Under the pieces are notes generated by a model that saw only the letters and a program-made list of their open reading frames with translations, was not told the origin of the DNA and ran no database searches. This document shows positions 4,183 through 25,335 of a stretch of 32,479 bases of DNA, piece by piece. Each line of letters begins with the position of its first letter. Positions within the stretch are counted from its first letter, which is position 1. The stretch comes from an archaeon (lineage in GTDB: Archaea > Nanobdellota > Nanobdellia > Pacearchaeales > GW2011-AR1). A program made the position numbers and the translations under genes. The stretch is from NCBI GenBank assembly GCA_021107855.1, contig JAIORZ010000006.1, forward strand, positions 1-32,479, written 5' to 3'.

Positions 4183-4189
4183 GTGTCAA

Positions 4190-5119
4190 ATGAAGACCTT
4201 GTCAAAATGCAATTTATGCAACAAAAAGAACAAATTGTTTTTATTTGAACAAAAAGATCGCATGTACAACATCTCTGGAAGGTTTAGACTGTATAAGTGT
4301 GAGGGTTGCGGTCTAATTTCGTTGGATCCTCAACCTTCAAATTTAACTCTTGATAAACATTATCCTTCGGAAAACTACTATTCTCTTAAAGACTCCTCTG
4401 AAAGCAACGTTAGAAAATTGGCCTATAAATCATATAATAGGAAGAGTAATATTTTAATAAAACTCTTGAGGCCATTTTTTAGATCAACTAAGATTGTTGA
4501 AGAGGGAAATTTATTAGATATAGGTTGTGGGGCAGGGACTTTTCTGAAATCTATGAAAAACTTGAATATGAATGTTTGCGGAATTGAACCCAGCTCATAT
4601 AATAAAGAGGTTGCAAGGAAAAATAAATTAGAAATTTTTAATGGCACTCTTTTTCAAGCCAAATATAAGGATGAACTGTTTGATGTAGTTACTATGAATC
4701 ATGTTTTTGAGCATGTAAGAAATCCGACTGAAACCATTGTAGAGATAAGTAGGATAATGAAGAAAGGGGGTCATTTGATAATCGGAGTTCCTAACTCTGA
4801 TTCATGGGTATTCAAATTATTGGGGGGAAATTGGATATCTATAGATTCTCCAAGACACTTGTTTTTATATAATAAAAGAATTTTGGAACTATATGCGAAA
4901 AAGGCAGATCTAGCAGTTATTAAAACTAGATGTTTTGGCAATTCAACCTTTTTGGAGAGTTTGAAAATAGCCTTGTCAGAAAATAAGAATAAGAATGCAA
5001 TGAAAAAGAATACTATTTTTGATAATAGGTTTTCACATTACCTTATTCTACCTATTTCTCTACTTTTTAATATTTTTAGCAAGGGAGATACTATAGAAAT
5101 AACACTGGAAAAGTCGTGA
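4190..5119 (+). CDS. SAM-dependent class I methyltransferase with N-terminal zinc finger
   Basis: This 309-residue protein has the same architecture as the gene at 331: a cysteine knuckle (C7, C10, C37, C40), a LDPQP linker, then motif I LLDIGCGAGTF (about 107-117). CGIEPS and NHVFEHVRNP follow, and then IIGVPNSDSW. It belongs to Methyltransf_23. It follows the GT-A gene by 7 nt, with AGGTG just upstream acting as a weak Shine-Dalgarno site, so it is probably co-transcribed. The two enzymes share architecture but are divergent in sequence, suggesting methylation of different positions or sugars. Confidence 0.8.
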   Translation: MKTLSKCNLCNKKNKLFLFEQKDRMYNISGRFRLYKCEGCGLISLDPQPSNLTLDKHYPSENYYSLKDSSESNVRKLAYKSYNRKSNILIKLLRPFFRSTKIVEEGNLLDIGCGAGTFLKSMKNLNMNVCGIEPSSYNKEVARKNKLEIFNGTLFQAKYKDELFDVVTMNHVFEHVRNPTETIVEISRIMKKGGHLIIGVPNSDSWVFKLLGGNWISIDSPRHLFLYNKRILELYAKKADLAVIKTRCFGNSTFLESLKIALSENKNKNAMKKNTIFDNRFSHYLILPISLLFNIFSKGDTIEITLEKS

Positions 5120-5186
5120 TGTCTGGCTTGTATAGGATAATTTTTAGAAAATGAGAAATTAAGAATTGCTATATCCCATAATAGAA

Positions 5187-5198
5187 ATTATTTTAAAT
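5187..5198 (+). promoter_or_regulatory. TATA-like box for the 421-residue gene
   Basis: ATTATTTTAAAT is centred about 26 nt upstream of the ATG at 5219. The 96-bp gap 5120-5215 contains nothing else recognisable. Confidence 0.45.
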
Positions 5199-5218
5199 GG
5201 TATTATTTACTGATTGTG

Positions 5219-6481
5219 ATGATATTGTATTTTGATAACTTAATAACCAATATACCTGCACACCCTGGAGTATATTTGGATATAGATAAAATTAGAGATT
5301 CTTGTAAAGCATATTCTACTAAAGATAGATACAACGTTACTTTGTATACCTTATTGAGTTATGCTGAATTAGATTGGGACGAGGTGGTTATTGTATATGA
5401 ATTTGGGGGAGATATGGTGGAGAGGAAAAAGGAATTTGAAAAGTTTGTTAGAGATCTTTGGCCCAAGGCCCATATTTTTTATGGGAGGAGTGATAATCAA
5501 AAAAAGTTTCAAAAAAGATTGAAATTTGTTAATGATTTAGAAGGTGATCTTGTTTTTTATGCAGGTAATAATGACCATCCCTTTATTGCCCCAGATAAAG
5601 AAACTATTAATTCATGTATAAGGAAAATTAAGAAAATGAATGAAAAATGGGACTATGTTTCAATTCTTTATTCTCATTTCCTTGAAGGATATAGAATGGG
5701 AAATAAAAAATCTCCATACCGCAAATATGTATCTTCTTGCCCAAAAATTTTAGAAGAATCCAAAAATTATTTTACAGTTCTGTTCCCAGAAGTTTGGGGA
5801 CATTCAATCCAGATATTTAATAAAAAACTGATTAATCATATAGTGTTCTCAGAAAAGTTTGGCGGAGAAATTTTTAGAAGAATTGAAAGTATATGGAGGC
5901 ACGAAAGGATGTTGAATAAAAGAGTGGACCAGCTCACGATAATCCCTAAAAATCCTGTTTGTGGTCATTTTGACGGATATAGTCATCTTAAGCATGGAGA
6001 ATATCCAATTTCTGAAGAAATCTTCCCTCCTTTTTTTATCCCAAGGGGATTTTTTGAAAATAAGATAAAAATTCGTTATGGGTATGAGAATTATAAGGAA
6101 GGTTGGGTGAATATCAATCCCATGAAGGCAAAACACGCATTCCATGATAAAAATGGTACGGATATGAAAATTTCTCTTGAGGATATCCCATTGTTTTGGA
6201 AGAAAAGAATCTCTAAAATTGATATTAATCCTAAATTGAATAAATCTCATCTCAGGAAGAGCATTGGGGATCTTCATAGAAAAATGAGATTTCCCCATGA
6301 ACCCATTGAGGATAAAGATTTTTTGTATCGCTTCAAGGCAAGAATTATCGCTGCAAATTATCTACCTTATTGGCTGAAAAGACTTTTGAGGAATAATCAC
6401 TTAATAAAGAAGTTGCGTGCAAAAATATTTTTTAAGCTAAGGGATGAATTTACTCTTGAAGAGAAAAAAATTAATGATTGA
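5219..6481 (+). CDS. Unrecognised glycan-cluster protein, possible glycosyltransferase-like
   Basis: I do not recognise this 420-residue protein. The N-terminal half alternates predicted strands and helices (ILYFDNLITNIP, EVVIVYEFGGD, DLVFYAGNNDHPFI). The last of these sits where a GT-A fold would carry its DxD, but no clear DxD is seen. The middle has PFFIPRGFFENKIKIRYGYE and GWVNINPMKAKHAFHD. The C-terminus is basic and helical (MRFPHEPIEDKDFLYRFKAR...). A second, decayed copy of this C-terminus lies at 8651-8899, and a possible smaller one directly downstream. A GTG at 5216 is also possible; the ATG at 5219 fits the TATA spacing. Its setting among glycosyltransferases and methyltransferases suggests a role in glycan assembly, but that is inference. 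Confidence 0.6.
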   Translation: MILYFDNLITNIPAHPGVYLDIDKIRDSCKAYSTKDRYNVTLYTLLSYAELDWDEVVIVYEFGGDMVERKKEFEKFVRDLWPKAHIFYGRSDNQKKFQKRLKFVNDLEGDLVFYAGNNDHPFIAPDKETINSCIRKIKKMNEKWDYVSILYSHFLEGYRMGNKKSPYRKYVSSCPKILEESKNYFTVLFPEVWGHSIQIFNKKLINHIVFSEKFGGEIFRRIESIWRHERMLNKRVDQLTIIPKNPVCGHFDGYSHLKHGEYPISEEIFPPFFIPRGFFENKIKIRYGYENYKEGWVNINPMKAKHAFHDKNGTDMKISLEDIPLFWKKRISKIDINPKLNKSHLRKSIGDLHRKMRFPHEPIEDKDFLYRFKARIIAANYLPYWLKRLLRNNHLIKKLRAKIFFKLRDEFTLEEKKIND

Positions 6482-6575
6482 CTGCAAAAATATTTTTGAG
6501 GAATAGTTTTATTAAAAGACATTCTTGATGAGGGTCGGGGGGATAAAGAAGATATTTAAAAAAAACTTTGAGAAA
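6482..6575 (+). other. Possible degraded fragment of the upstream gene's 3' end
   Basis: TGCAAAAATATTTTT occurs near the end of the 5219 gene (about 6418-6432) and again just after its stop. TTTTGAGGAATA also recurs (about 6385 and 6494). Translated, the spacer gives short pieces such as LRNSFIKRH, resembling LRNNHLIKKL in the gene. This looks like a decayed partial tandem copy; the pieces are short and AT-rich, so the case is weak. Confidence 0.3.
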
Positions 6576-7394
6576 TTATTTTTTAATCATTATGCCTATA
6601 CGGTCATTATTTATCACTGTTCCTTCCTCGGGCTTATCCTTTAGAAAATCTATGCATGCCTCTTCTACTCCTGGCAAGAATTTCCATTGGTAATCATGAA
6701 TTGTAATCCGGGAATTAGGAACCATTTTTGGATAAACTTTATCAAAACTATCCATAATTGAACTATAAAAATCCCCGTCAAAAAAGGCAAAAGCTATTTT
6801 CTTTGGATATTCTTCATCAGGTATTTTTCCAAACCACCCAGTGTGGATTGTTGGTAGCTTTAATTTTGCCTTCCTAAAATTATTAATAAGCTCCTCTTTT
6901 TTTGTCTTACAAGATCCTTTTTGGTAATTTTTGGATCTAGGTTTGCCTCGGCTCTTGAGATTAATCTTATCTTGAGCTTTCACTTCTGGCAGTCCCTCAA
7001 ATGAATCGTAAATGTGGAAGACCTTGCCTGAGCCATAGTGCTTTAGTAATTTCTGAATAAATAAGGATGTTGTTCCAACATTACATCCTAATTCGACGAT
7101 ATCCCCTTCAACCCCCTCATCTAACACTTTCTTTAAATTTCTAAGAACAACCCTTACATGATTTTCTGTAACCATTCCGGATAAAATCATGGGATAATCT
7201 AATAGCAGTTTCTCGACAATATCTTGATCCCCCTTTAATTTGAACCTTATCTTTTTTGGAAGATTTTCTATCTTCTTTAATCCTAAATAACTCTCTATAT
7301 AAGTTGCCTTAACAACTCTAAATATCCCGGGATATTGTTTTAAAAAATTAATTAACCTTTTATTCAAAAGTATATTCATCATTATAGTGGACAT
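6576..7394 (-). CDS. TylF/MycF-family O-methyltransferase
   Basis: This ~272-residue protein has DIVELGCNVGTTSLFIQKLL (motif I, about 95-115), YDSFEGLPEV, and AFAFFDGDFYSSIMDSFD. The last is the metal-binding acidic segment typical of the TylF family, macrocin O-methyltransferases that methylate deoxysugar hydroxyls with Mg2+. A conserved HDYQW...GVEEA tail follows. The start is uncertain: TTG 7397, ATG 7394 and ATG 7382/7379 are all in frame. A TATA-like TTTATAAATA at 7401-7410 favours 7382 or 7379 for a leaderless message. It points away from the GT2 gene at 7540 and likely methylates a sugar of the surface glycan. Confidence 0.85.
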   Translation of the reverse strand: MSTIMMNILLNKRLINFLKQYPGIFRVVKATYIESYLGLKKIENLPKKIRFKLKGDQDIVEKLLLDYPMILSGMVTENHVRVVLRNLKKVLDEGVEGDIVELGCNVGTTSLFIQKLLKHYGSGKVFHIYDSFEGLPEVKAQDKINLKSRGKPRSKNYQKGSCKTKKEELINNFRKAKLKLPTIHTGWFGKIPDEEYPKKIAFAFFDGDFYSSIMDSFDKVYPKMVPNSRITIHDYQWKFLPGVEEACIDFLKDKPEEGTVINNDRIGIMIKK

Positions 7395-7400
7395 CAACTA

Positions 7401-7520
7401 TTTATAAATATGATTATTCCCTAATTAATTATTCTTAATTTTTGTAGATTTAATCTTTTAGCAATCTTAAATGACCTATATTTGAGAGTATGGAGGAGTG
7501 AATCTATATATTTAAAAATA
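7401..7520. promoter_or_regulatory. Divergent promoter region between TylF-like and GT2 genes
   Basis: TTTATAAATA at 7401-7410 faces the TylF-like gene. TTTAAAAATA at 7511-7520 is centred about 25 nt before the GT2 ATG at 7540. The 90 bp between the two boxes shows no other clear signal. Confidence 0.45.
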
Positions 7521-7539
7521 ACTCCCTCATTTAAGGAAG

Positions 7540-8475
7540 ATGAACAAAAAAATAGCAATAATAATCTTAAATTGGAATGGAACAGAAGATACAATTGAAT
7601 GTTTAAATAGTATAGAAAAAAACCATTTTAAAAATTATAAAATATTTTTAGTGGATAATGGTTCTAGTTATGAATCTGTTAAAAAACTTAAAAAACTTAA
7701 AAGTAAAAAGATTGAGCTTGTTATAAATAAAAATAATTTAGGATTTGCTAAGGGAAACAACCGAGTAATTAAAAAGGTCTTAGATTTAGGATTTGATTAT
7801 TTCATGATCTTGAATAATGATGTAGTTGTCGGGGAAAAATTTTTATCCAAGCTATTTGATATAATGAAACGTGATGATAATGTTGGAGTAGTTTCTCCAA
7901 TAGTTTTTAATTATGACAATAAAAATATTTTGATGAAGACGAATTCTCCAGGAAGATTTAATTTGAGAAAGGGAGGGGGGGAGCCTTGGGAATCCGATTT
8001 ACATCAAATCAAATTGAGAAAGAGAGAATTTTTTGTAGATTATACTTCGGCATGCTGTTGGTTAGTTAGGTCAAGTATGGTTAAGAAAACTGGAGGTTTT
8101 AATGAACGATTTTTTGCATATGGGGAGGAGATAGAATTAGCATTTAGGATAAAAAAAGCAGGATATAAATTCCTAATTAACCCTGCGGCTAAAATTTGGC
8201 ATAAGGGGGCCGCATCCTCTGGAAGGATAAGTGGGTTTAAAATATACCATTCAACTAGGAATATGATTTGGTTAGAAAGGATACATGCGACAAGAGGAGA
8301 ATTCTTGCTTTTCTTGATGAATTTATTTTTTATTAAATCTCCAAAGAATGTCATTATCTCATTGATTCAATCTAATAAATTTTTAGTTCTAATAAGTTAT
8401 TTTAGAGGGCTAATTGAAGGATTGTTTACTAGAAATAATGAATTTAATAATTCTAAATACTACAAAATTAAATAG
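7540..8475 (+). CDS. GT2 family glycosyltransferase (rhamnosyltransferase-like)
   Basis: This 311-residue protein has the full GT2 pattern: IAIIILNWNGTEDTIECL at the N-terminus, FLVDNGS, NNLGFAKGNN, and FMILNNDVVVGEKFL (NND in the DxD position, about residue 95). FFAYGEEIELAFRIKKAGY (the ExxDxxxR-like region) and KIWHKGAASSG follow. It groups by pattern with WbbL-like enzymes adding deoxyhexoses to lipid-linked glycans in the cytoplasm. The tail (about 255-300) is hydrophobic and may attach to the membrane. A G7 run (7975-7981) encodes Gly-Gly-Gly-Glu in the middle of the gene. It is preceded by its own TATA-like box. Confidence 0.85.
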   Translation: MNKKIAIIILNWNGTEDTIECLNSIEKNHFKNYKIFLVDNGSSYESVKKLKKLKSKKIELVINKNNLGFAKGNNRVIKKVLDLGFDYFMILNNDVVVGEKFLSKLFDIMKRDDNVGVVSPIVFNYDNKNILMKTNSPGRFNLRKGGGEPWESDLHQIKLRKREFFVDYTSACCWLVRSSMVKKTGGFNERFFAYGEEIELAFRIKKAGYKFLINPAAKIWHKGAASSGRISGFKIYHSTRNMIWLERIHATRGEFLLFLMNLFFIKSPKNVIISLIQSNKFLVLISYFRGLIEGLFTRNNEFNNSKYYKIK

Positions 8476-8650
8476 GTTTAGTATCTCTCGCAGGATTCAT
8501 CGAAGTTTTAAGCATTTTCCAAAAAATGTTGATTGGAGTATTAAAGATAACCGTAGATGGTCGTAATCAATTGAATTTGGATGGAAATAAATATGCAACC
8601 TTAAAATTCCTTTTTCTTATTTTAATTATGTGTGGAATAAATGGATTTAA

Positions 8651-8899
8651 TTATTTGAATGGGTCTATTTCGAAAAAAATGCGATAGCTAGGGAAATAAA
8701 AAAGATAGATAAGGACATGAGAACACCGCATGAAAAGATTGAAGATAAAAGTAGCTGGTATAGATTTAAAACCAGATTAGTATCGGAAAACTATCTTCTT
8801 TATAATGTAATGAGGTTTTTGGGTAGAAGTAAATATCTTTTGGAGATATGTAGGTTGTTTTTCTTTAATTTAAAAGAAGAATTTTTAAGAAGGAATTAA
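8651..8899 (+). pseudogene. Decayed C-terminal copy of the 421-residue protein
   Basis: The frame from 8651 to 8899 contains MRTPHEKIEDKSSWYRFKTR, followed by LVSENYLLYNVMRFLGRS. These match MRFPHEPIEDKDFLYRFKAR and IIAANYLPYWLKRLLRNN at the C-terminus of the gene at 5219. A TAA at 8648 closes the frame upstream, and no long matching N-terminal part is visible in 8476-8650. This is therefore a truncated relic of a paralogue rather than a 60-residue gene, although an ATG at 8717 would permit a short peptide. The stretch 8476-8650 holds no other recognisable gene. Confidence 0.75.
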
Positions 8900-8906
8900 T
8901 AGGGCA

Positions 8907-10067
8907 TCATAAAAAGATGCATTCTGTCCTTGGGTCTAATTGCTTGATTTGATTATATACTTCTTTATTGAATTGTCCGACATTTAAAAAAATTCTTAGG
9001 GCTTTTTCTTTGTTAATAATTTCTTCTGGTTTTCTACATATTAAATCGGTTCCATAAAGCCTTTTGTTTTGTTTCGGTGAGCTGTTGTCTAGAACCCCCT
9101 TGAATATTTTTTCGTCTATCCCATACGCGAATAAAGGATGTGCAAAAAGACTTGCCCCAAATAACCAGTTTTCTTTATCTGGTTTTGCAAATTCTTCTAC
9201 TTTTCTCATTCTTTCTTTAAGGCTTCTTCCATATTGTTCTATCATTTTTAAAGTATAATCTTTCATGTTGCTGATTTTGTAAGAAGGTGGGTTGTCTACT
9301 TTTTCTGCTACAATTTGAATTGAATAATCTATGTAAAAAGAAATTTCTTTTATTTTGAAACCGTGTTTCATGTGTAAGTCCGCCCAGTGAAAATTAGTGC
9401 AAACAGATGTGTGCTCAAAATTTAAAACATTGGCCAGTCCTTTTGAAAAATTATACTCTTGGTTTGGGATTGTCGTAATCAATAGCCCTCCTTTTTTTAG
9501 TGCTCTCCAGGAGTTTTCAAAGTATTCTCCAAACTTAAGGAAATGTTCGAGGGTGTGGCAGGAAATAATAGTATCAAATTCTCCTTCTAATTCTTTTGCA
9601 GTTTCTTTAGAAAAAAGTTTTTCATGAACAGTAACGCCTTCTCTTGGCCCAAAATATAGTGGGTCAAAAACCTCGATCCCGGAATTATAATGACTCAATA
9701 ATAAAGAAACTACTTTTCCTGGTCCAGCTCCAATTTCTAATAATCTTCCTCCTTTGTGGTGCCTTTTGATTAGTTCAAAAAGATGTTGATATTGGCCTGC
9801 CCAAAGTTTTCCGATTCCATCGGCATGAAAGGTTTCATATAGTACTTCTGGGTCTATTATATCTTTTAGTGTTATGAGTCCGCAATCTTCACAAATGCAG
9901 ATGTTGATGGGCGCGAAGTCGTCATCTTCTCTTGGGGTCTCTACACATATTGGTAAAACGGGCATTCTTATATTTACATGAGGTGGGATGCTCTCTGAAA
10001 GATTTTTTGAAGAACAGGCTGGACATTCGGTTCTTCTGGATATGTGTTTTGAGATGTCTCTTTTCAT
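8907..10067 (-). CDS. Sugar C-methyltransferase-like protein (zinc-binding N-term, SAM domain, C-terminal Methyltransf_14-like domain)
   Basis: The 386 residues show three modules. The first is a cysteine pair module (C15, C18, C59, C62). The second is a class I methyltransferase core with motif I RLLEIGAGPGKV (about 107-118), SCHTLEHF and ITTIPNQEYN. The third is a C-terminal part with WLFGASLFAHPLFAY, VLDNSSPKQNKRLYGTDL and RKPEEI. That last pattern (GAS...LDNSPxKQ...G) is the C-terminal domain of NDP-deoxysugar C-methyltransferases such as the TylC3/NovU group, of similar length (~400). These methylate a keto-sugar nucleotide. It is convergent to the relic at 8651 and has a TATA-like CTTTATAAG 25 nt upstream (10088-10096). 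It fits the nucleotide-sugar genes that follow. Confidence 0.8.
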   Translation of the reverse strand: MKRDISKHISRRTECPACSSKNLSESIPPHVNIRMPVLPICVETPREDDDFAPINICICEDCGLITLKDIIDPEVLYETFHADGIGKLWAGQYQHLFELIKRHHKGGRLLEIGAGPGKVVSLLLSHYNSGIEVFDPLYFGPREGVTVHEKLFSKETAKELEGEFDTIISCHTLEHFLKFGEYFENSWRALKKGGLLITTIPNQEYNFSKGLANVLNFEHTSVCTNFHWADLHMKHGFKIKEISFYIDYSIQIVAEKVDNPPSYKISNMKDYTLKMIEQYGRSLKERMRKVEEFAKPDKENWLFGASLFAHPLFAYGIDEKIFKGVLDNSSPKQNKRLYGTDLICRKPEEIINKEKALRIFLNVGQFNKEVYNQIKQLDPRTECIFL

Positions 10068-10087
10068 ATCTCTAGTATTTTCCTTTT

Positions 10088-10143
10088 CTTTATAAGCTTA
10101 ACTATGATAATTTAGTTAGAATAGCATAGCTTTTTAAAATATA
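10088..10143. promoter_or_regulatory. Divergent TATA-like promoters
   Basis: CTTTATAAG at 10088-10096 lies 25 nt before the C-methyltransferase start on the minus strand. TTTTTAAAATATA at 10131-10143 lies about 24 nt before the SDR start on the plus strand. Confidence 0.5.
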
Positions 10144-10159
10144 ATCTTTTTTTATAAAA

Positions 10160-10891
10160 ATGGCTCAAGCTAACTTCCTATCTGGTAAAATAATTCTTAT
10201 TACAGGTTCGGCCAGAGGAATTGGAGCTGCAACTGCTAAGGTTGCGAAGAAATACGGAGCTGAGGTGATTTTGCATGGCAAAAGTGAGTCAGAGAATTTA
10301 AAAAAATTGGCCGTAGAATTAAATTCTAAATATATTTTTTGTGACATAACTAATGAATTACAAGTGAGAAAGTCCGTAGAAAAATTTCAGAAAATAGATG
10401 TTTTGATAAATTCCGCAGGCATCAATATTTCAAAATCTTTTGAGGATTTAACGAATGAAGATTGGTTAAATGTTTTTAAGGCGAATGTTCTTGGGACCGT
10501 AAATTTTTCTAATGCTGTAATACCTAAGATGCGAGATGCAAAATTTGGGAAAATAGTTAACATCTCTTCCGCAAAGGGTTATTTGAGTGCTTCTGGGAGA
10601 GCAGCTTATTCTTCTTCAAAAGCAGCTGTAATAAATTTAACAGCTAGTATGGCCAAAGAACTTTCTCCTGAAATTATTGTTAATGGGATTGCCCCTGGGT
10701 TTACAAATACTGAAATGACTGCTGGGACTTGGTCTCCTAGAGTAAGAGAGCATATTGATAAAACACTTTTGAAAAGAATGGCAAAACCAGAAGAGATAGC
10801 TGAAGCAATTTTGTTTTTAGCTAGTGATAGATCAAATTATATCGCTGGGCAGACTATTCTTGTAGATGGCGGATTTACGATAGGAATTTAA
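10160..10891 (+). CDS. Short-chain dehydrogenase/reductase (FabG-like)
   Basis: This 243-residue classical SDR has the cofactor motif TGSARGIGAA (about 15-24), NSAGIN (NNAG equivalent, about 86-91), catalytic Ser in VNISSAKG, and catalytic YSSSK (YxxxK). The C-terminal IAGQTILVDGG is typical of the family. The absence of an Arg pair after strand 2 is not diagnostic, so NAD versus NADP is open. FabG-like enzymes usually serve fatty-acid synthesis. Here the gene sits between a sugar C-methyltransferase and a sugar nucleotidyltransferase, so reduction of a keto-sugar is a reasonable but unproven role. It converges on the nucleotidyltransferase with an 11-nt gap. Confidence 0.85.
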   Translation: MAQANFLSGKIILITGSARGIGAATAKVAKKYGAEVILHGKSESENLKKLAVELNSKYIFCDITNELQVRKSVEKFQKIDVLINSAGINISKSFEDLTNEDWLNVFKANVLGTVNFSNAVIPKMRDAKFGKIVNISSAKGYLSASGRAAYSSSKAAVINLTASMAKELSPEIIVNGIAPGFTNTEMTAGTWSPRVREHIDKTLLKRMAKPEEIAEAILFLASDRSNYIAGQTILVDGGFTIGI

Positions 10892-10901
10892 AGACCGATA
10901 A

Positions 10902-11603
10902 TTATTCTCCAGAATATCCTTTGCCATGTGGATAATTTTCGCAAGCATATTTGTATGAACTTGGAACCCCTGTGTCAAACCAGGTAAAGGACTTTATTGA
11001 AAGATTCTTTTTCAAGAGGGCATTTATTCCGTGTGAAACTTGAACTTCTCCTTCGATTGTTTCTGAGTTGTTTGCTAAAGATTCCCAAAACGCTTCCCAG
11101 TCATAAACTCCGATTAACCCTATGTATGCATGTTTGTTGTCTGTCTTTATTTTGTCATCAAGTCTAACGACTTTGTCTCCCTCTACTTTTGCAGAGCAAA
11201 ATCTTCTGGTGTCTTCAACTTCTGCTACGCCTAGCCAATTAGAGTTTGGTGATGATATTTTTTCTGTTACTAAGGTATCTCCTGCGATGTGTATAAACGG
11301 GCATTGAAGATGTTCTTTGCATGCAAATAGAGAGTACCCTGGGCCAGAGCCTTTTCCGAAATATTTGTCAACCACTACAAAAGTTAGTTTACGATTGGGA
11401 TATGCTTTTTCAAGATAACAAATAAGTGAATTTCTTTTATGCCCCACTGCAATTATTATTTCTACTTCTTTAGGAAATTTTTCTATTATGTGGCAGATTA
11501 CGGGCTTGCCTTTTAGTGGCAACAAAACCTTGTTTAAATGTTCGCTAAATTCGCTCATTCTGCTCCCTATCCCCGCTGCGAGGATACATACTTTATACTC
11601 CAT
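10902..11603 (-). CDS. Sugar-phosphate nucleotidyltransferase
   Basis: This 233-residue protein begins MEYKVCILAAGIGSR, the intact G-x-G-x-R nucleotide-binding signature (G11, G13, R15), with the downstream catalytic lysine in NKVLLPL (K25). IIAVGHK, a GSGPGYSL segment, IAGDTLV (GD metal site) and a FDTGVPSSY end follow. It would join NTP and a sugar 1-phosphate. The nucleotide and sugar cannot be told from sequence. The ATG at 11603 is chosen over the upstream 11642 start because TTTTAAAAA (11624-11632) lies 25 nt upstream and the paralogue at 12857 starts with the same MEYKVCILAAG. It is a clear paralogue of the N-terminal half of the fusion at 12857. Confidence 0.85.
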   Translation of the reverse strand: MEYKVCILAAGIGSRMSEFSEHLNKVLLPLKGKPVICHIIEKFPKEVEIIIAVGHKRNSLICYLEKAYPNRKLTFVVVDKYFGKGSGPGYSLFACKEHLQCPFIHIAGDTLVTEKISSPNSNWLGVAEVEDTRRFCSAKVEGDKVVRLDDKIKTDNKHAYIGLIGVYDWEAFWESLANNSETIEGEVQVSHGINALLKKNLSIKSFTWFDTGVPSSYKYACENYPHGKGYSGE

Positions 11604-11623
11604 AATATTCTTTGTTTGTTTTG

Positions 11624-11690
11624 TTTTAAAAAGGTTTCTCAAATTTACAGATTTTATTAATATACAATTTGTTATATAAATATTTATAAA
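11624..11690. promoter_or_regulatory. Divergent TATA-like promoters
   Basis: TTTTAAAAA at 11624-11632 serves the nucleotidyltransferase (25 nt to ATG 11603). TATTTATAAA at 11681-11690 is 26 nt from the ATG at 11712. Confidence 0.5.
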
Positions 11691-11711
11691 GGTTCTATTT
11701 TTTGGAACGCC

Positions 11712-12449
11712 ATGAGCCCGGGAAAGTTTAAGGTAAGCCCATCTTGTAATTATGATGATGCAGTTTCTTCTTTGTCTTCATATTTAGTGGATTTAAAAAA
11801 TGAAATACGTCCGCGTCAGGCTATGGTCGTTGGAATTTCGGGACTATCTCAATCTGGTAAAACAAGAACTGCCACTTCCTTAACTGGGATGGTTGGAGAG
11901 TCTTTTTTTGTTGAAGGAGATAAATATCAGCCAGGTAGAGAAACTGGGATGACTGTTTACAAAGAAGTTTTGGAAGACCTTAGGGCAGGAAGACCTTTTG
12001 ATTTAAATTTTCATCATCGAGTATGGAACTATGCTGCGATGATGGGACAAATCTTAGAGCCAATAAGTGCCTTTAACGCTTCTGGCGAACATAGTAGAAG
12101 TCTTCAATTAAAGAGCGTAGTGAATCCAAATACTAAGCGAGAAGACTCTATGCATGATGAAGAATACACCATAACTAGAGATACTACAATTCTAATTCCT
12201 TGCATGTATCTCAGACATATGACGAATTATTTTGATCAGATGATACACTTGGATATTAGTCCAGAAACTTCGGTAAATAGGAAAATGGAAACGAGTTTAC
12301 GAAAGGGTGTTGAAAGAAGTCGCAAGCTGACAGAGGAGATGGTTCTACGGGTGGAACATCCGGCTATGATACATCAAGAAAATATTTATGACACTACTAG
12401 TGAAATTTCTTTGGATGTAGATGATTTTGGGAAGGTTTTTACTCTTTAA
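11712..12449 (+). CDS. P-loop kinase, nucleoside/sugar kinase-like
   Basis: This 245-residue protein has Walker A GLSQSGKT (G44-T51) after an N-terminal helix. VEGDKYQPG follows, at the place where uridine kinase-like enzymes carry the substrate-binding Asp. Further on are a helical lid region with RKMETSLRKGVERSRK and a C-terminal helix. It resembles the uridine kinase/phosphoribulokinase group of small-molecule kinases rather than an ATPase. The substrate is unknown; phosphorylation of a sugar in the surrounding nucleotide-sugar pathway is inference. It converges on a small zinc-HTH gene 2 nt away, and is likely leaderless. Confidence 0.65.
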   Translation: MSPGKFKVSPSCNYDDAVSSLSSYLVDLKNEIRPRQAMVVGISGLSQSGKTRTATSLTGMVGESFFVEGDKYQPGRETGMTVYKEVLEDLRAGRPFDLNFHHRVWNYAAMMGQILEPISAFNASGEHSRSLQLKSVVNPNTKREDSMHDEEYTITRDTTILIPCMYLRHMTNYFDQMIHLDISPETSVNRKMETSLRKGVERSRKLTEEMVLRVEHPAMIHQENIYDTTSEISLDVDDFGKVFTL

Positions 12450-12451
12450 GA

Positions 12452-12763
12452 TTAATTTAAAAATTTTCTTTTCCAATCAAGAATTGTTTTTCGGGAAACT
12501 CTTATGTTGAAATTTTGATTTAAACTTTGGACAATTTGTCCAAGGCTTTGGTTATTTTTTATAGCCCTCATAGCGGCTTTTATAACGAATGGAGGATGCC
12601 TAAACCCCTTAAACCCGTCATTGGGTGTAAATTTTCTGTTACAAATTTCGCAATAATATATATTTTTGTTTGTCGATTTATTTTTTCTTAGTTGTACAAA
12701 AAAAACCTCTTTAGACGCACAGTAAACACATTCTTCGTTATCTGAATTTAAGTTATTATTCAT
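12452..12763 (-). CDS. Small zinc-ribbon HTH protein, transposase-derived
   Basis: This 103-residue protein has a zinc ribbon (CVYC near 12-15, CEIC near 38-41, then NRKFTPNDGF). A helix-turn-helix follows: VIKAAMRAIKNNQSLGQIV, then VSRKTILDWKRKF. The pattern is the N-terminal DNA-binding part of IS6/IS1-like transposases, but no DDE catalytic domain follows, and neighbouring frames show none. It is therefore probably a domesticated DNA-binding protein. It is transcribed divergently from the five-gene sugar operon at 12857 across a 93-bp gap, the usual position of a local regulator. Regulation of that operon is inference. Confidence 0.6.
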   Translation of the reverse strand: MNNNLNSDNEECVYCASKEVFFVQLRKNKSTNKNIYYCEICNRKFTPNDGFKGFRHPPFVIKAAMRAIKNNQSLGQIVQSLNQNFNIRVSRKTILDWKRKFLN

Positions 12764-12783
12764 ATAAGGGAAAAATAACTAAA

Positions 12784-12835
12784 GTTTATAAAATTATCGT
12801 TAACTAAACAGCAAGTTTAAATAGTAAATAAATTA
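12784..12835. promoter_or_regulatory. Divergent promoter region before the sugar operon
   Basis: GTTTATAAAA at 12784-12793 is 25 nt from the zinc-HTH start (minus strand). GTTTAAATAG (12815-12824) and AAATAAATTA (about 12826-12835) precede the operon ATG at 12857; the second has the leaderless spacing. Confidence 0.5.
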
Positions 12836-12856
12836 CTTGACTGGTAAGTTAAGAAA

Positions 12857-14488
12857 ATGGAATATAAAGTATGTATTTTGGCGGCGGGGAAAAATGAAAA
12901 GGTGAGTTACGCTAAAGATTTCCCAGCTACGCTTCTTCCTATTGGAACTGCTTCTGCTATAAGTAAAATTATAGAAAAATTCCCGTATGAAATTGAAATC
13001 GTGATTGCTGTCGGATATAAATCTAATTTGGTAAGAGACTTTCTAAAAATTGCGCATTCTGATCGGAAAATAACTATTGTAGATGTTTTGGATTATTCAG
13101 GCCAGGGATCTGGTCCGGGCAAATCTCTTTTAATGTGCAAGGATCATTTGAAATGCCCTTTTATTTTTACTTCTGGGGATATAATTGTCTCGGGACCTGT
13201 TCCAGAGCCAACAAAAAATTGGGTGGGAGTAACCACGGTTTCAGATTCGACCAATTACTGTATGGCGGAAGTAGAAAATGAAGAAATAGTTAAATTTTAT
13301 GACAAGGTACCTATGCCAACACTTCTTAAAACTTGTAAGAACTATAAGACCATTTTTAACAATGCGTTTATTGGTATGGCGGGAGTTTTAGATTATGAAG
13401 AATTCTGGAAGGGTTTTGAAAAAGACCGCAATCTAATAGAGAAAAAATTACAAGTTTCTAACGGTCTTTCAAATTTAATTGGCCGTAAAGTGGAGCCCTT
13501 GCCCTTTTTTAATTCGTTTAATATAGGTACTGAAGCTGGATATAACCTTGCTAATAGATTTTTCGGAAAAAATAGGATTATAGTAAAGCCTGACGAATAT
13601 ATTTATTTTGAAAATGGAAGTGTAATAAAATATTTTAAGGATCAGGGGATTGTAAGACAGCGAGTAGAAAGGTCCAAGAAACTCAAGGGTATTGTTCCAG
13701 ATTTGGTTGACATTACCCCCAATTTTTATTCATACGATTTTATTGAAGGAAAAACTCATGCCAAAATAAATGATGTTTCAATTTTTAGAGAGTTGTTGGA
13801 TACATGCAAAAATGGGATATGGAGTCCGATAGAGATAGGGACTGATAAGAAAAATTTTAAAGACATTTGCAAAAAATTCTATAAGGATAAAACATACGAA
13901 AGAGTAGAAATGTTTTATAAAAAGGATGGAGAGGTTGACAGGGAAAATATAATCAATGGGGAGAAAGTTCCTTCTTTAAAAAGCATGTTATCTGAAATTG
14001 ATTGGGATAAATTATCTGAAGGAATTCCTGTAAGGTTTCATGGAGATTTTCAGCCGGAAAATATTTTAATATGCAACAAGGGTTTCCAGTTAATTGACTG
14101 GAGGCATAATTTTGGGGGGAACGTTGACTATGGAGATATATATTATGATTTTGCAAAGTTACATCATGCATTAATAGTTACTCATGAAATTATCCGAAAT
14201 AATCAATTTGAGATAAAGGAAGACAGGGGAGTTGTAACTTATGACTTTTTATTAAAAAGTAATTTGGTGGAATATAAAAATTTGCTTGAAAAATTTATCC
14301 TAGATAATAATTATGATTTAGATAAGTTGAAAATGTTAAGTGCTTTAACTTTTTTAAATATTGCACCACTTCACCATTCTCCTTATGACCGATTTCTATA
14401 TTATTTAGGCAAGCATAGATTGTTTAAGGAATTAGAGAACAATAATTTTTATAAACTGAAGAAAGCCAATACTATAGAAAATGAATAG
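12857..14488 (+). CDS. Fusion: degenerate nucleotidyltransferase domain plus aminoglycoside/choline kinase-like phosphotransferase
   Basis: This is a 543-residue two-domain protein. Residues 1-~235 are a clear paralogue of the nucleotidyltransferase at 10902 (MEYKVCILAAG, IIEKFP, GSGPGKSL, CPFIF..GD). However, the G-x-G-x-R signature has become K12-N13-E14-K15 and the catalytic lysine position is T25, so this half may not catalyse nucleotidyl transfer. Residues ~245-540 are an APH/choline kinase-like fold with the Brenner motif HGDFQPEN (H395-N402; catalytic D397) and the metal-binding LIDWRH (D414). The fusion may phosphorylate a sugar and retain the first half as a binding or scaffold domain. 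It is first in an operon with overlapping genes. Confidence 0.75.
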   Translation: MEYKVCILAAGKNEKVSYAKDFPATLLPIGTASAISKIIEKFPYEIEIVIAVGYKSNLVRDFLKIAHSDRKITIVDVLDYSGQGSGPGKSLLMCKDHLKCPFIFTSGDIIVSGPVPEPTKNWVGVTTVSDSTNYCMAEVENEEIVKFYDKVPMPTLLKTCKNYKTIFNNAFIGMAGVLDYEEFWKGFEKDRNLIEKKLQVSNGLSNLIGRKVEPLPFFNSFNIGTEAGYNLANRFFGKNRIIVKPDEYIYFENGSVIKYFKDQGIVRQRVERSKKLKGIVPDLVDITPNFYSYDFIEGKTHAKINDVSIFRELLDTCKNGIWSPIEIGTDKKNFKDICKKFYKDKTYERVEMFYKKDGEVDRENIINGEKVPSLKSMLSEIDWDKLSEGIPVRFHGDFQPENILICNKGFQLIDWRHNFGGNVDYGDIYYDFAKLHHALIVTHEIIRNNQFEIKEDRGVVTYDFLLKSNLVEYKNLLEKFILDNNYDLDKLKMLSALTFLNIAPLHHSPYDRFLYYLGKHRLFKELENNNFYKLKKANTIENE

Positions 14489-15272
14489 AAAATTAATTGA
14501 TAAAACATCTCGATACTGCTTCGAGAAACTTGTAGGAACTGGATATGACCATGGCCCGCTAGAAATGGCGAAGGATCTTTCTACGACTTTTGTGCATAGT
14601 GGTGAAGCGGTTCTTTCTTTGGAATCAAAGGGAAATTTGGAGAATATTAAAATTCGTGAGGGGCAAGGATTTATTATATCTCCGGGAATTTTGTATAACT
14701 TTAATCCAAATAATGGAGCGGTTGCTTATTCCGTTTCTTCAGAAATCGGTGGAGAATCCCCGATAATTGAAATTATAGATGACCAAAAAGGGAAAAGAGA
14801 GGTTGTATTGGAAGATTGGAAGATTATAAAAAATCCGAAGAGGGTAAGCAAACCGTGGGGTCACGAATTGTGGATTAGTTGGTTTAGGGATTATCATGTG
14901 CTAAAACAAATAGGAATGAATAAGGGGAATCAATCTAGCCTGCAATTTCATAGAGAAAAATTAGAAACGAATTATTTGGAATCTGGACATGCCGATGTGA
15001 TTGATGGCTATAAACTTGATCCTCAAACTTCGGAGCAAGAAGTCCAGGCATCTTCCAAGGGAGTTGATTTTGATAAATTTAGGATAAGTATGTCTCCGGG
15101 GGATCATTGGACATCTGATGCTGGAGTTGTACACAGAGTAATTGCGACTGAGAACTATTTAGCTTATGAGACTTCAACTCCAGAATTGGATGATGTAATA
15201 AGAATTTCCGATGTCACCGGGAGAGGATCTGGCAGGATAAAAGAAGAGCACAAAACAGGGAGGAAAAAATAA
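14481..15272 (+). CDS. Two-cupin sugar isomerase-like protein (mannose-6-phosphate isomerase type II-like)
   Basis: This 263-residue protein contains two cupin units. The N-terminal one (about 30-95) has GEAVLSLESKG and EGQGFIISPG. The C-terminal one (about 125-245) begins SKPWGHELWI, a mannose-6-phosphate isomerase type II signature, and continues SSLQFHREKLETNYLESG (cupin motif 1, H...E) and PGDHWTSDAGVVHRV (motif 2). Such proteins bind a divalent metal and isomerise or epimerise phosphosugars. It overlaps the fusion gene by 8 nt and ends in a TAATG overlap with the SIS gene, so production is tightly coupled. Whether it is an isomerase, an epimerase or a binding protein is open. Confidence 0.65.
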   Translation: MNRKLIDKTSRYCFEKLVGTGYDHGPLEMAKDLSTTFVHSGEAVLSLESKGNLENIKIREGQGFIISPGILYNFNPNNGAVAYSVSSEIGGESPIIEIIDDQKGKREVVLEDWKIIKNPKRVSKPWGHELWISWFRDYHVLKQIGMNKGNQSSLQFHREKLETNYLESGHADVIDGYKLDPQTSEQEVQASSKGVDFDKFRISMSPGDHWTSDAGVVHRVIATENYLAYETSTPELDDVIRISDVTGRGSGRIKEEHKTGRKK

Positions 15273-15925
15273 TGGATGAAGAACATACAAAGAATTTAGT
15301 TAAATTGTATTTGAAGGAGAAGACTGAAATTTTAAAGGAATTTCCCGTGGACGATGTAGTAAAAGTGGCCGATGTAGTTTGGGATACGTATAATCGAGGT
15401 GGAACCGTATATGCTTGTGGGAATGGTGGGAATGCTGCATATGTTTCTAATATGCTCACAGATTTTTCTATGCATCCATTTGTTTCAGACGATAAATCAA
15501 AGCCCATCAGTTCAAATGTTCCGCGCTTAAAAGTATATCATATGGTAAATGAGGGGAGTACCTTAACCGCTCTTTTGAATGATATCGGACCAGAATACAT
15601 CTTTAGCCACCAGCTTATTAATAATTCTGCTCAAGAAGGAGATATTTTATTTGGGTTTAGTGGTAGCGGGAATTCTGGTAATGTTCTTGAGGCATTTAAG
15701 ATTGCTAAAGAACGAGGCATAGAAACTGTAGCTATAACTCGTGGCAATGGTGGGAAATCGAAAGACCTTGCTGATTACTGCATTGTTATACCTGGGGCGT
15801 CTACCTTTCCAGGACAAGTAGGCGGGAATGATAATAATTTTCATTTTGAAGACGCTCTTTCGTCAATACCTCATATTATCACAGGAATATTAAGGGAGAG
15901 AATTACAAAGCAATATGGCAGATAA
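15272..15925 (+). CDS. SIS-domain phosphosugar isomerase, GmhA-like
   Basis: This 217-residue single SIS domain has GNGGNAAYVSN (about 50-60; the family reads GNGGSAADA), TALLNDIG, and GFSGSGNSGNVLEAF (about 128-142). The stretch VAITRGNGGKSKDLADYCIVIPG is typical of sedoheptulose-7-phosphate isomerases (GmhA, ~195 aa). The C-terminal zinc-ligand region differs: instead of the usual Q-E-x-H arrangement there is FHFEDAL, so the metal site may be altered. GmhA converts sedoheptulose 7-phosphate to D-glycero-D-manno-heptose 7-phosphate. Transketolase, whose two halves follow immediately, makes sedoheptulose 7-phosphate, which supports a related reaction here. Confidence 0.8.
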   Translation: MDEEHTKNLVKLYLKEKTEILKEFPVDDVVKVADVVWDTYNRGGTVYACGNGGNAAYVSNMLTDFSMHPFVSDDKSKPISSNVPRLKVYHMVNEGSTLTALLNDIGPEYIFSHQLINNSAQEGDILFGFSGSGNSGNVLEAFKIAKERGIETVAITRGNGGKSKDLADYCIVIPGASTFPGQVGGNDNNFHFEDALSSIPHIITGILRERITKQYGR

Positions 15926-16742
15926 TGAAATAGAACTTGGAGCAAAGTCAAAAGAGCTTAGGAAGACAATACTAAAAATGGTTTATGAATCTGGAGCTGG
16001 GCATTTGGGAGGATCTCTTTCTTGGGCAGATATAGGAACAGTTCTTTTTTTTGATCAAATGAATTTTGAAAATCCTAACAGAGACCTCTTCATTCTTTCG
16101 AAGGGGCACTCTGTTCCAACATTATATGCACTTTTGGCTATGAAAGATGAAATTGACCCAAATTCTTTGAAAACTCTAAGGCAACTAGGTAGTCCCCTTC
16201 AGGGCCACCCAGTAGTGGGTACTCATTCAGAAATTCATGCTAGTACTGGCGCACTTGGGCAGGGACTTTCCATGGGAGTGGGATATGCTTTTGCAAATCA
16301 TGCAAAAAAAGACTCGAGTAGGACATATGTTTTACTTGGAGATGGAGAGTGTCAGGAGGGTCAGGTTTGGGAGGCTGCTATGTCTGCTTCAGCTCTGGCG
16401 ACAAAGGGGAGAATAGCTGGCTTAACTGCAATCGTCGATTACAATGGTGCCCAAGGTGACAATACATTAGATGAGACAATGCCCTCTATGAAGCCCCTGG
16501 CGGATAAGTGGGAGAGTTTTGGCTGGTACGTTCAAGAAGTTGATGGGCACGATATCGGTCAAATAAAGAAAGCATATAAATCCTCAGCGAATAGATTAGA
16601 CAAGCCTTCTATTGTTATCGCCCACACAAAAAAGGGAAGTGGAGTTTCCTTTATGGAAGCTGAGCCGCTCAAATGGCATGGCGGAAGTTTAGACTCTCGA
16701 TTATATGAAGCTGCATTAAAAGACTTGGAGGGCAAAAAATGA
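15915..16742 (+). CDS. Transketolase N-terminal (TPP-binding) subunit
   Basis: This 275-residue protein contains GHLGGSLSWADI (H30), SKGH (H65), and GALGQGLSMGVGYA. The TPP/Mg motif starts GDGECQEGQ (142-150) and ends VDYNGAQ (N177). This is the first half of transketolase as a separate subunit, the usual archaeal arrangement, of about the usual length. It transfers two-carbon units between ketose and aldose phosphates in the cytoplasm, together with the next gene. It overlaps the SIS gene by 11 nt and the C-subunit by an ATGA junction. In this operon it probably supplies a seven- or five-carbon ketose phosphate for sugar activation, rather than general metabolism (inference). Confidence 0.93.
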   Translation: MADNEIELGAKSKELRKTILKMVYESGAGHLGGSLSWADIGTVLFFDQMNFENPNRDLFILSKGHSVPTLYALLAMKDEIDPNSLKTLRQLGSPLQGHPVVGTHSEIHASTGALGQGLSMGVGYAFANHAKKDSSRTYVLLGDGECQEGQVWEAAMSASALATKGRIAGLTAIVDYNGAQGDNTLDETMPSMKPLADKWESFGWYVQEVDGHDIGQIKKAYKSSANRLDKPSIVIAHTKKGSGVSFMEAEPLKWHGGSLDSRLYEAALKDLEGKK

Positions 16743-17686
16743 ATGGCAAACTAAAATCTCAGAGAGAATCTTTTGGAGAAGCAATACTTGAAGCTGGAAG
16801 GAAAAATGATAATATTTATGTATTTACCTCGGATTTGGGGGGACCTACGAAAGTAAAAGAATTTGCAAAAGAATTTCCTGAAAGATTTGGGGATTTGGGG
16901 ATTGCGGAACAACATGCAATTTCCTTTGTAGGCGGAGCAGCATTAGCGGGGCTGAGGCCATTTTATACGACCTTCGGGGTATTTGCTGCCTCTAATTATG
17001 GACAGATAAGACAATCAATTGCATATAGTAAAGCTCCTGTAGTAATAGTCGGCACCCACGCCGGCTTAATAGGGAAAGACGGTGCTTCCCATCAGGCATT
17101 AGAAGAAATTGCCCTAATGTCTTCCTTGCCAGGGATGAATGTACTTCAGCCGGCAGACGATATTGAAACAAAACAAATTGTGAATTTTTTAGCTAATAAC
17201 AACATGACGGCTTACTTGAGACTTTCAAGGCACCCTCAAGAAAATGTCCACGATGAAAACTATCAATTTGGATTTAACAAGGCAACAAAATTAATGGAAA
17301 GCCCAGAGCCCAAAATAGCTATTTTCTCTACGGGATATATGTCTACGCATGCTCTGGATGCCGCTAAAAAATTATCTAAAGAAGGCATCTCTATAGAAGT
17401 TGTAAATTTTTCAACGTTAAACCCGATAGACAAGGAGATGGTGAATGGTTACAAGGATAAAGGCATCGAAAGAATTTATACGCTTGAAGATCACAACATC
17501 AACGGTGGCTTGGGATCTAGAATTTGTGAAATTGTTGCAGAAGATGGCATTGCGACAAAGGTGACTAGGCTTGGAATGAATACTTTTGGGACGAGTGGGA
17601 GTCCAAACGACCTCTATAAAAAATTTGGTTTGGATGTTGAGAGTATTGCTAACAAAATATCTGAAGATTTGAAACCGGATCTGTAA
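16739..17686 (+). CDS. Transketolase C-terminal subunit
   Basis: This 315-residue protein has the pyrimidine-binding domain (GDLGIAEQHAI, with E57 the likely TPP-activating glutamate; FYTTFGVFAA; GTHAGLIGKDGASHQALEE). A C-terminal transketolase domain follows (IAIFSTGYMSTHALDAAKKL, TLEDHNINGGLGSRI). Length and order match the archaeal split C-subunit. Translation is coupled to the N-subunit by ATGA, as expected for a 1:1 complex. It is the last gene of the operon. The 106 bp after it (17687-17792) contain no gene and lead to a convergent HAD gene. Confidence 0.93.
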   Translation: MNGKLKSQRESFGEAILEAGRKNDNIYVFTSDLGGPTKVKEFAKEFPERFGDLGIAEQHAISFVGGAALAGLRPFYTTFGVFAASNYGQIRQSIAYSKAPVVIVGTHAGLIGKDGASHQALEEIALMSSLPGMNVLQPADDIETKQIVNFLANNNMTAYLRLSRHPQENVHDENYQFGFNKATKLMESPEPKIAIFSTGYMSTHALDAAKKLSKEGISIEVVNFSTLNPIDKEMVNGYKDKGIERIYTLEDHNINGGLGSRICEIVAEDGIATKVTRLGMNTFGTSGSPNDLYKKFGLDVESIANKISEDLKPDL

Positions 17687-17792
17687 TTATAATTTAAAAC
17701 ATTTAGAGTGAAACTTGTTGACTTTCTACTCGTTCTGGTAGTGTTGTATGAATAGTTTGTATTGCGCGTTAATTATTTGGAGGTTTGTTTCT

Positions 17793-18473
17793 TCAGGACT
17801 TATTGCTTTTAATAATTTTTGAGATTTCGCTTATATTAGTTAAAATATAATCAACTTCGGTTTTTTTGGGGGCAAAGACCTTGCCTCTTCCCCAGGGAAT
17901 CCAGGCAGTTTTCATTCCCAAATTGCTTGCCGGGATTAAATCCGTCTTATACCTATCTCCGACAACTAAAACTTCTTTTGGAGAATACTGAAACTCATTT
18001 AAGGCTTTTTTATATGGCGCTGTTTTATTATAATCGGTAACTGCAAAAATCTTTCTAAATTTATTAATGTTAATTCCGGCATCCTTTATTTTTTTTATTT
18101 GTCTTCCTTCCTCTCCGCTTGTTACAATTGCAAGATCAATTGCTGATTCATTAAGTTTTCTGATTGTTTCTAGTGCCTTGGGTAATGGCTTTATTTTTCC
18201 TTCTAAATTAAAAAAGTGTATAGCTTTTTTTCCATGCTTCATGTATTTGCTAACACTCTCACTTATTTCGTTTAGGTATTTCGTGATTGCTTCGGCGGAA
18301 TTTTTTGATGTGTTATTAATTTCGTTTAATCTCTCAACCGCTTTATTGAAATCTTCTACCTTCAATCCTTTATTGACCATTGCTTGTACGGCGCTATTAA
18401 TGGATTCTGGGAAAGAAGCACTCCAACTGTCAATCAAACAGTCATCTAAATCAAAAATAACTAATTTATACAT
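17793..18473 (-). CDS. HAD-superfamily phosphatase
   Basis: This 226-residue protein has HAD motif I FDLDDCLID (nucleophile D8, general acid D10), a helical cap from about 15 to 95, motif II IVTSG, a lysine in the TAPYKKAL region (motif III), and motif IV VVGDRYKTDL. The cap makes it a subfamily I enzyme like phosphoglycolate phosphatase rather than capless GmhB. It is convergent to the transketolase operon and has its own TATA-like box. A sugar phosphatase step is needed in heptose activation, and this enzyme is positioned to supply it, but its substrate is not readable. Confidence 0.85.
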   Translation of the reverse strand: MYKLVIFDLDDCLIDSWSASFPESINSAVQAMVNKGLKVEDFNKAVERLNEINNTSKNSAEAITKYLNEISESVSKYMKHGKKAIHFFNLEGKIKPLPKALETIRKLNESAIDLAIVTSGEEGRQIKKIKDAGININKFRKIFAVTDYNKTAPYKKALNEFQYSPKEVLVVGDRYKTDLIPASNLGMKTAWIPWGRGKVFAPKKTEVDYILTNISEISKIIKSNKS

Positions 18474-24767: not shown

Positions 24768-24793
24768 AATGCTAAATTTGGTGTTTATTTTAT

Positions 24794-24880
24794 GCGTGGG
24801 TAGTTTAGTGGCAGAATAACTGGCTTCCAATATTGGTTAGAAGAAACCAGTTGACCGGGGTTCGAGTCCCCGCCTGCGCA
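24794..24880 (+). tRNA. tRNA-Gly(UCC) with a 16-nt intron
   Basis: Acceptor GCGTGGG pairs with CCTGCGC (two G-U wobbles), discriminator A at 24880. The D-arm is GTTT/GAAT, anticodon stem ACTGG/CCAGT, loop C-T-TCC-A-A with anticodon TCC at 24826-24828, and T-arm CGGGG/CCCCG around TTCGAGT. No CCA is encoded. The anticodon loop is interrupted after position 37. Confidence 0.95.
24830..24845 (+). other. Archaeal tRNA intron with bulge-helix-bulge
   Basis: In the precursor, outer helix ACTGG/CCAGT and inner 4-bp helix CTTC/GAAG (24824-24827 with 24840-24843) are separated by 3-nt bulges CAA (24828-24830) and AAA (24844-24846). Cutting between bulge nucleotides 2 and 3 removes exactly 24830-24845 at the canonical 37/38 site. 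Confidence 0.85.
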
Positions 24881-24882
24881 TT

Positions 24883-24965
24883 GAGGGAATGCCTGCACTG
24901 CTCGCATTTCACTCTTGATGTATCTTGACTTAGATCAAGAGCAAAAAGCTCGGTCAAACGTTTGA
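24883..24965 (+). repeat. Broken copy of the tRNA-Leu 5' end with inverted repeats
   Basis: GAGGGAATGCC at 24883-24893 is identical to the first 11 nt of the tRNA-Leu at 24974. CGGTCAAACG at 24951-24960 matches its D-arm (24989-24998). They are in the same order but separated by ~57 nt instead of 4. Between them lie CTCTTGAT (24912-24919) and ATCAAGAG (24934-24941), an 8-bp inverted repeat. TCAAACGTTTGA (24954-24965) is a perfect palindrome. Confidence 0.7.
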
Positions 24966-24973
24966 TCGATAAC

Positions 24974-25315: not shown

Positions 25316-25335
25316 TAATTTTGGGATAAAATAAT

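Follow-up and report, generated by a model that had tools for sequence, protein, structure and literature searches.

A cluster of genes for sugar-phosphate chemistry lies at positions 10160 to 18473 of contig JAIORZ010000006.1 (assembly GCA_021107855.1), of which positions 1 to 32,479 were analysed and are called the window below. The host is a small DPANN-type archaeon of the Pacearchaeales, and its genome assembly comprises 936 kb in 14 contigs and is 85% complete. The original prediction saw in this cluster an archaeal pathway to a sugar resembling nucleoside diphosphate (NDP)-heptose, equipped with its own transketolase. All genes that it named are open at their coordinates and match their families, as judged by an open reading frame (ORF) check and profile searches. 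The core is a forward-strand run of five genes (12857-17686) that overlap by 8, 1, 11 and 4 bases. It encodes, in this order, a pseudo-nucleotidyltransferase (NT) fused to an APH-type kinase (NT-APH; 12857-14488), a bicupin that is a candidate sugar isomerase or epimerase (14481-15272), a SIS-domain isomerase (15272-15925), and the N-terminal (15915-16742) and C-terminal (16739-17686) halves of a transketolase. Upstream of the run the orientation is mixed: an SDR oxidoreductase of 243 amino acids (10160-10891, forward), a separate NT of the sugar-1-phosphate type with an intact GxGSRM...NK motif (10902-11642, reverse), a P-loop kinase-like protein divergent from it (11712-12449, forward), and a small zinc-ribbon/helix-turn-helix (HTH)-like protein, by eye a possible regulator (12452-12763, reverse). 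A HAD phosphatase of TIGR02253-like profile, with a putative role in the same pathway, is convergent with the run (17793-18473, reverse). Thus, of the single operon first proposed, the five overlapping genes stand, but the NT and zinc-ribbon/HTH genes are on the minus strand and the HAD gene faces the run. Among the proposed tailoring genes, the SDR and cupin are in place, but the C-methyltransferase (8907-10067, reverse) falls outside the interval.

Both transketolase halves were confirmed by family matches and by their residues. The N half carries the thiamine diphosphate domain and the C half the pyrimidine and C-terminal domains; as the gene is split, they score 253.8 and 232.7 bits against a whole-chain NCBIfam cut-off of 488. 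Aligned with Escherichia coli TktA, the pair retains the thiamine diphosphate/Mg2+ and catalytic residues H66, D155, N185, E411, H26, H100, H261 and H473 (TktA numbering), and four of five phosphate/sugar contacts (R358, H461, D469 and R520), the fifth, S385, being replaced by P; the residues are grouped by their roles in TktA. Because nearly all of them are kept, the pair is, by alignment, a credible transketolase for phosphorylated sugars. The N half is the sole Transketolase_N match in the genome. In the same 85% complete assembly RpiA, RpiB, Rpe, transaldolase and the OMP-decarboxylase/HPS family gave no match, and control genomes did match. Since it is the only copy found and none of these enzymes was detected, the transketolase is probably dedicated to this cluster. 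Any single absence is weak at this completeness, but the five jointly make a housekeeping pentose-phosphate role unlikely. Ribose 5-phosphate, which is needed for sedoheptulose 7-phosphate, likewise has no obvious source in the genome, as these five pentose-phosphate and ribulose monophosphate (RuMP) families gave no match.

The SIS protein had been described as a GmhA-like isomerase overlapping the transketolase. The overlap exists, with the N half only (11 bases); the identity with GmhA does not hold. Against the NCBIfam equivalog TIGR00441 (GmhA) the protein scores 84.6 bits, the cut-off being 209.45, and its nearest named families are GmhA-type, well under cut-off. When aligned with GmhA of E. 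coli and with GmhA-like control proteins from archaea, the window protein has N, N, D, H, E and H at S55, H61, E65, R69, Q172 and H180 (E. coli numbering), positions of the GmhA active site, so that four of the six contact positions are changed. N55, D65, H69, E172 and H180 occur in all members of the subfamily, and position 61 is N in archaeal and H in actinobacterial members. An insertion of about 12 residues before the last helix, with FPGQxGxNDNNFHxED, is conserved throughout. Also retained are the serines of the phosphate loop and both members of the acid/base pair, D at 65 and H at 180. Judged from these alignments, the SIS protein is a subfamily separate from GmhA and not a GmhA orthologue; a simple GmhA identity was rejected on account of the changed residues and the insertion. 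The subfamily was found in two of 371 genomes of the phylum, that of the window (370 bits) and one other (G427, 329 bits), with the next SIS proteins at 122 bits or less.

The fusion gene had been presented as one of two candidate kinases, together with the P-loop protein. Both family matches hold, with the correction that the N-terminal half of the fusion has a nucleotidyltransferase fold (PDB fold search, in which only NT-domain matches were listed) from which the GxGxR...K motif is gone. The APH half keeps HGD...N...DWR, and its residues H395, G396, D397, N402 and D414 are invariant across 89 relatives. GxGxR...K is retained by the NT half in 86 of the 89 NT-APH proteins. The exceptions are the window and loci L002 and L051, each of which has an additional, free-standing NT gene whose motif is intact. 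Of the five clusters with a free-standing NT, three thus have a decayed NT half, against none of the 84 that lack one (Fisher p = 9e-5, uncorrected for the kinship of the window and L002). Because the NT halves have decayed only where a separate intact NT is present, the divergent NT (10902-11642) is very probably part of the pathway, and it probably takes over from the decayed domain. The divergent NT/P-loop kinase pair is likewise found in L053 and L055. In L051 (6837-8006) a KdsC-like phosphatase is fused to a nucleotidyltransferase, a rare architecture that would tie the phosphatase step to the nucleotidyltransferase step. A more distant NT-APH fusion (24% identity) accompanies a small HAD in Enterococcus phage 9183 (L080, MT939241, 8651-10626); these genes adjoin thymidylate synthase, dUTPase and a 'nucleotide sugar synthetase-like' gene, which suggests sugar modification of phage DNA.

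A search for the same gene order elsewhere, which the original prediction had advised, was productive. With the SIS protein as query in the named genome collection and an SIS alignment as query against IMG/VR viral contigs, the block was found repeatedly, beyond what chance would give: one further archaeal genome and 21 viral contigs have it, and six actinobacterial loci have four of its genes. The closest relative is a Candidatus Pacearchaeota contig (L002), which holds NT, zinc-ribbon, NT-APH, cupin, SIS and transketolase genes with 54-71% identity to the window, the zinc-ribbon copy adjoining the cassette being 55% identical. The actinobacterial loci hold a four-gene front end of transketolase N and C halves, cupin and SIS, and four of the six (Actinomadura, Actinoallomurus) adjoin polyketide synthase (PKS) and GT20 glycosyltransferase genes. 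In L003 and L004-L007 (about 1000-10600) the cluster comprises iterative-type PKS, KAS III, split transketolase, GT20 (OtsA-like), cupin and SIS genes, and it probably makes a polyketide that bears an unusual sugar. Nearly all 21 viral contigs carry the transketolase pair and cupin. In 16 of them the order cupin, NT-APH, SIS, transketolase N, transketolase C, AroE-like is nearly fixed, with a small HAD at either end, and the incomplete contigs agree with this order as far as they reach. At least in L076 and L077, phage-type genes (QueE-like, thymidylate synthase) stand next to the cassette; beyond these the viral status of the contigs is taken from IMG/VR. The pathway is therefore not archaeal in the sense first meant: viral contigs account for the majority of known copies, and the four-gene front end also occurs in actinobacteria. 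One of the cases named as fatal to the original prediction was a sole transketolase in an unconserved gene order; the gene is the only copy found, yet the order is strongly conserved. What is upheld is a dedicated split transketolase in a conserved sugar-activation cluster with isomerase, kinase, nucleotidyltransferase and tailoring genes. A description of this cassette was not found in the literature searched, the coverage of which was partial.

Other transketolase-like pairs keep different company. In Cohaesibacter (L009) and Brucella endophytica (L010) they stand beside GmhA-like SIS, NT and B12-radical SAM genes, and the L010 locus additionally holds GHMP kinase and DegT. Equivalents of H26, H100, H461 and R520 are missing from the L010 pair, which is thus probably not a canonical transketolase; the Brucella and Cohaesibacter loci were rejected as close relatives because their transketolase-like pair has lost key residues. 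A second transketolase-like pair or half adjoins a B12-radical SAM protein at L057:4753-8132 and L063:16348-18609. This pairing, common to L057, L063 and L010, is another possible sugar-modifying module.

The front end of the cluster is exchangeable. Seven further archaeal genomes from the phylum have relatives of the NT-APH protein with 39-44% identity, within sister clusters whose front ends are GatZ-like in five cases, Rpe in one, and transketolase plus SIS in one (L057); a KdsC-like phosphatase and a cupin are present in most of the seven as well. A GatZ-like alignment matched 362 viral stretches, and the best 80 of these include NT-APH in 62, cupin in 57, KdsC-like phosphatase in 50 and small HAD in 14. 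A single archaeal NT-APH query matched no viral contig, but an NT-APH alignment did. Among the best 80 viral NT-APH loci, 58 have GatZ-like and 16 transketolase plus SIS front ends (one with both); seven have neither, three of them with Rpe and one with a transketolase pair without SIS. Transketolase, SIS, GatZ-like and Rpe enzymes all act on ketose phosphates. The GatZ-like protein, not present in the window, is shorter than the family (about 330 versus 420 amino acids) and far under its cut-off, and retains, by motif only, candidate catalytic Asp-His, Glu and His residues. A reductase-type gene, SDR or AroE-like, is found in eight of nine archaeal clusters. The two are mutually exclusive in eight archaeal clusters, which suggests that two families serve a single role; the window SDR is 57-61% identical to SDRs in three related archaeal clusters, where it replaces the AroE-like dehydrogenase.

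Phylogenetic trees were used to compare the histories of core and front end. In the NT-APH tree, the window and L002 form the sister group of 18 viral transketolase-type proteins (support 99/95), apart from the GatZ types. The tree of SIS with both transketolase halves has three clades, namely actinobacteria, window plus L002, and viruses, and the archaeal L057 is nested deep within the viral clade (100/98), its NT-APH being placed elsewhere. Comparison of the two trees indicates that front ends mostly co-travel with NT-APH and that, in one clear case, a front end was exchanged between archaeal and virus-type lineages. Raw identities had pointed to a different history, in which the window and L002 would combine an archaeal GatZ-type NT-APH core with a transferred front end. 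This was rejected because the NT-APH tree groups both with the viral transketolase type, and only L057 and L070 look like such a swap.

From the genes present, their conserved linkage, the catalytic residues preserved in transketolase, kinase and separate NT, and the replacement of front ends in sister clusters, we lean towards the view that the locus encodes a modular pathway, here in its transketolase form, which makes an unusual activated sugar for surface glycans. We infer the individual reactions and their sequence, as well as the nucleotide and the identity of the sugar (five to eight carbons). The split transketolase would shift a two-carbon unit between sugar phosphates, with fructose 6-phosphate as the simplest donor here. 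The dedicated SIS protein would interconvert ketose and aldose to give a particular sugar phosphate, which the cupin, like phosphomannose isomerase (PMI), would isomerise or epimerise. A HAD phosphatase would then strip the terminal phosphate, the APH-type kinase would phosphorylate the anomeric carbon to a 1-phosphate, the nucleotidyltransferase would form the NDP-sugar, and the SDR, or the AroE-like enzyme in other clusters, would tailor it. The phosphatase, kinase and NT steps would copy the logic of MupP-AmgK-MurU, and the gene content of the sister clusters agrees with such a route. A broader proposal, which we put forward more tentatively, is that this is a mostly viral plug-in pathway, in which one core (cupin, HAD, kinase-NT fusion, SDR or AroE-like) and swappable front ends (transketolase plus SIS, GatZ-like, Rpe) may give an undescribed family of nucleotide sugars, the modules being exchanged among viruses, DPANN archaea and actinobacteria.

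The C-terminal domain of the window cupin is mannose-6-phosphate-isomerase-like, of KPWGxE...STPExDDVIR type, and the L052 cupin matches PF01050 (type II phosphomannose isomerase) with 33.7 bits over a cut-off of 23.6; the window cupin itself has no such match. Several observations weigh against the proposed pathway. The fold search of the cupin returned generic bicupins only. No KdsC-like or small HAD is in the window cluster, nor did the 85% complete host genome yield a KdsC relative; the HAD on the opposite strand is a possible stand-in. Clusters of the Rpe type have no cupin, and in L057 and L070 a viral-type transketolase plus SIS is joined to another NT-APH clade. Finally, the best solved-structure matches of the NT-family profile include cytidylyltransferases for non-sugar phosphates (LicC, PntC and the inositol-1-phosphate enzyme).

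A true NDP-heptose pathway is an unlikely alternative explanation of the same genes. Here the transketolase would give sedoheptulose 7-phosphate, a possible product of such an enzyme, SIS would convert it to heptose 7-phosphate, and kinase, phosphatase and NT would lead to NDP-heptose. The GmhA-type families nearest to SIS, its retained phosphate-loop serines, D65 and H180, and the presence of HddC among weak NT matches fit this scheme, but the SIS departs from GmhA at S55, H61, R69 and Q172 and in its conserved insertion. Since the GmhA identity fails, the heptose interpretation now depends solely on the possible products of the transketolase, and for these RpiA, RpiB and Rpe, as sources of ribose 5-phosphate, were not found in the 85% complete genome. 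Moreover, neither a kinase of HldE/HddA type (GHMP or PfkB) nor a match to GmhB was recognised among the cluster proteins, and the GatZ versions of the core suggest other sugars. Still more doubtful is an activated polyol or other alcohol, such as a cytidine diphosphate (CDP)-alditol, for which the SDR or AroE-like enzyme would reduce a ketose phosphate, and the kinase and a LicC-like NT would activate the product. The widespread reductase-type gene and the cytidylyltransferase matches of the NT profile would suit it, but that profile matches RmlA and GalU too, direct use of the alditol phosphate would leave no need for first a phosphatase and then a kinase, and the PMI-like cupin and SIS indicate aldose/ketose chemistry. 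An aminocyclitol route like that of 3-amino-5-hydroxybenzoic acid (AHBA) or validamycin was set aside, as no DAHP-synthase- or dehydroquinate-synthase-like gene was recognised in the clusters. That the transketolase serves the ordinary pentose-phosphate metabolism of a reduced archaeon, as a mere neighbour of the sugar cluster, is very improbable and was ruled out as the leading explanation: it is the sole transketolase found, but no other pentose-phosphate or RuMP enzyme tested turned up in the 85% complete genome, its gene overlaps that of SIS, and the SIS-transketolase linkage is conserved in viruses and actinobacteria.

The kind of system proposed for the modular pathway, NDP-sugar biosynthesis, is familiar; its viral abundance, dedicated transketolase and interchangeable front ends are surprising. 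If it is correct, a dedicated transketolase builds nucleotide-sugar backbones in viruses and their possible hosts, which is not described in the papers searched, and the genes offer a genetic handle on viral and archaeal glycans of unknown make-up. Many viral 'transketolase', 'phosphoheptose isomerase' and 'tagatose aldolase' annotations would then belong to one pathway, and GmhA-like genes in such loci should be taken as evidence of heptose only with caution. The natural module swaps make the substrate logic testable with few enzymes.

Elsewhere in the window (24793-32477), tRNA-Trp, tRNA-Leu and tRNA-Arg genes are followed by integrase-like, primase-like and resolvase-like ORFs, resembling an integrated element.

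Among known systems, the bacterial NDP-heptose pathways (GmhA, HldE or HddA, GmhB, HddC) resemble the cassette in their functional order of isomerase, kinase, phosphatase and nucleotidyltransferase. They differ in that residues and insertion set the cassette SIS apart from GmhA, the kinase is APH-type and not GHMP or PfkB-type, a dedicated transketolase and a cupin are added, and the phosphatase in better preserved clusters is KdsC-like or a small HAD, not GmhB-like. AmgK-type anomeric sugar kinases are likewise APH-type. A precedent for the phosphatase-kinase-NT logic is MupP-AmgK-MurU, an anabolic recycling pathway in Pseudomonas (PMC5371407), which has a HAD phosphatase, an anomeric sugar kinase and a nucleotidyltransferase in common with the cassette. 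Its sugar is salvaged N-acetylmuramic acid (MurNAc), whereas that of the cassette would be made de novo by transketolase plus SIS or the GatZ-like enzyme, and kinase and nucleotidyltransferase are fused in the cassette. In the lincosamide pathway, LmbN is an isomerase and LmbP a GHMP kinase. This route to guanosine diphosphate (GDP)-octose also uses the transaldolase LmbR, the phosphatase LmbK and the nucleotidyltransferase LmbO (PMC12945683). It thus shares with the cassette a dedicated carbon-carbon bond enzyme of the central-carbon type within a sugar-activation cluster, together with a phosphatase and a nucleotidyltransferase, but has a transaldolase instead of a transketolase, is without a cupin and is not known to occur in viruses. 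Lastly, E. coli GatZ and KbaZ, which epimerise fructose 6-phosphate at C4 (PMC11907403), belong to the ketose 6-phosphate C4 epimerases and are distant kin of the alternative front end; the GatZ-like proteins of the cassette sit in NDP-sugar clusters and not in galactitol catabolism.

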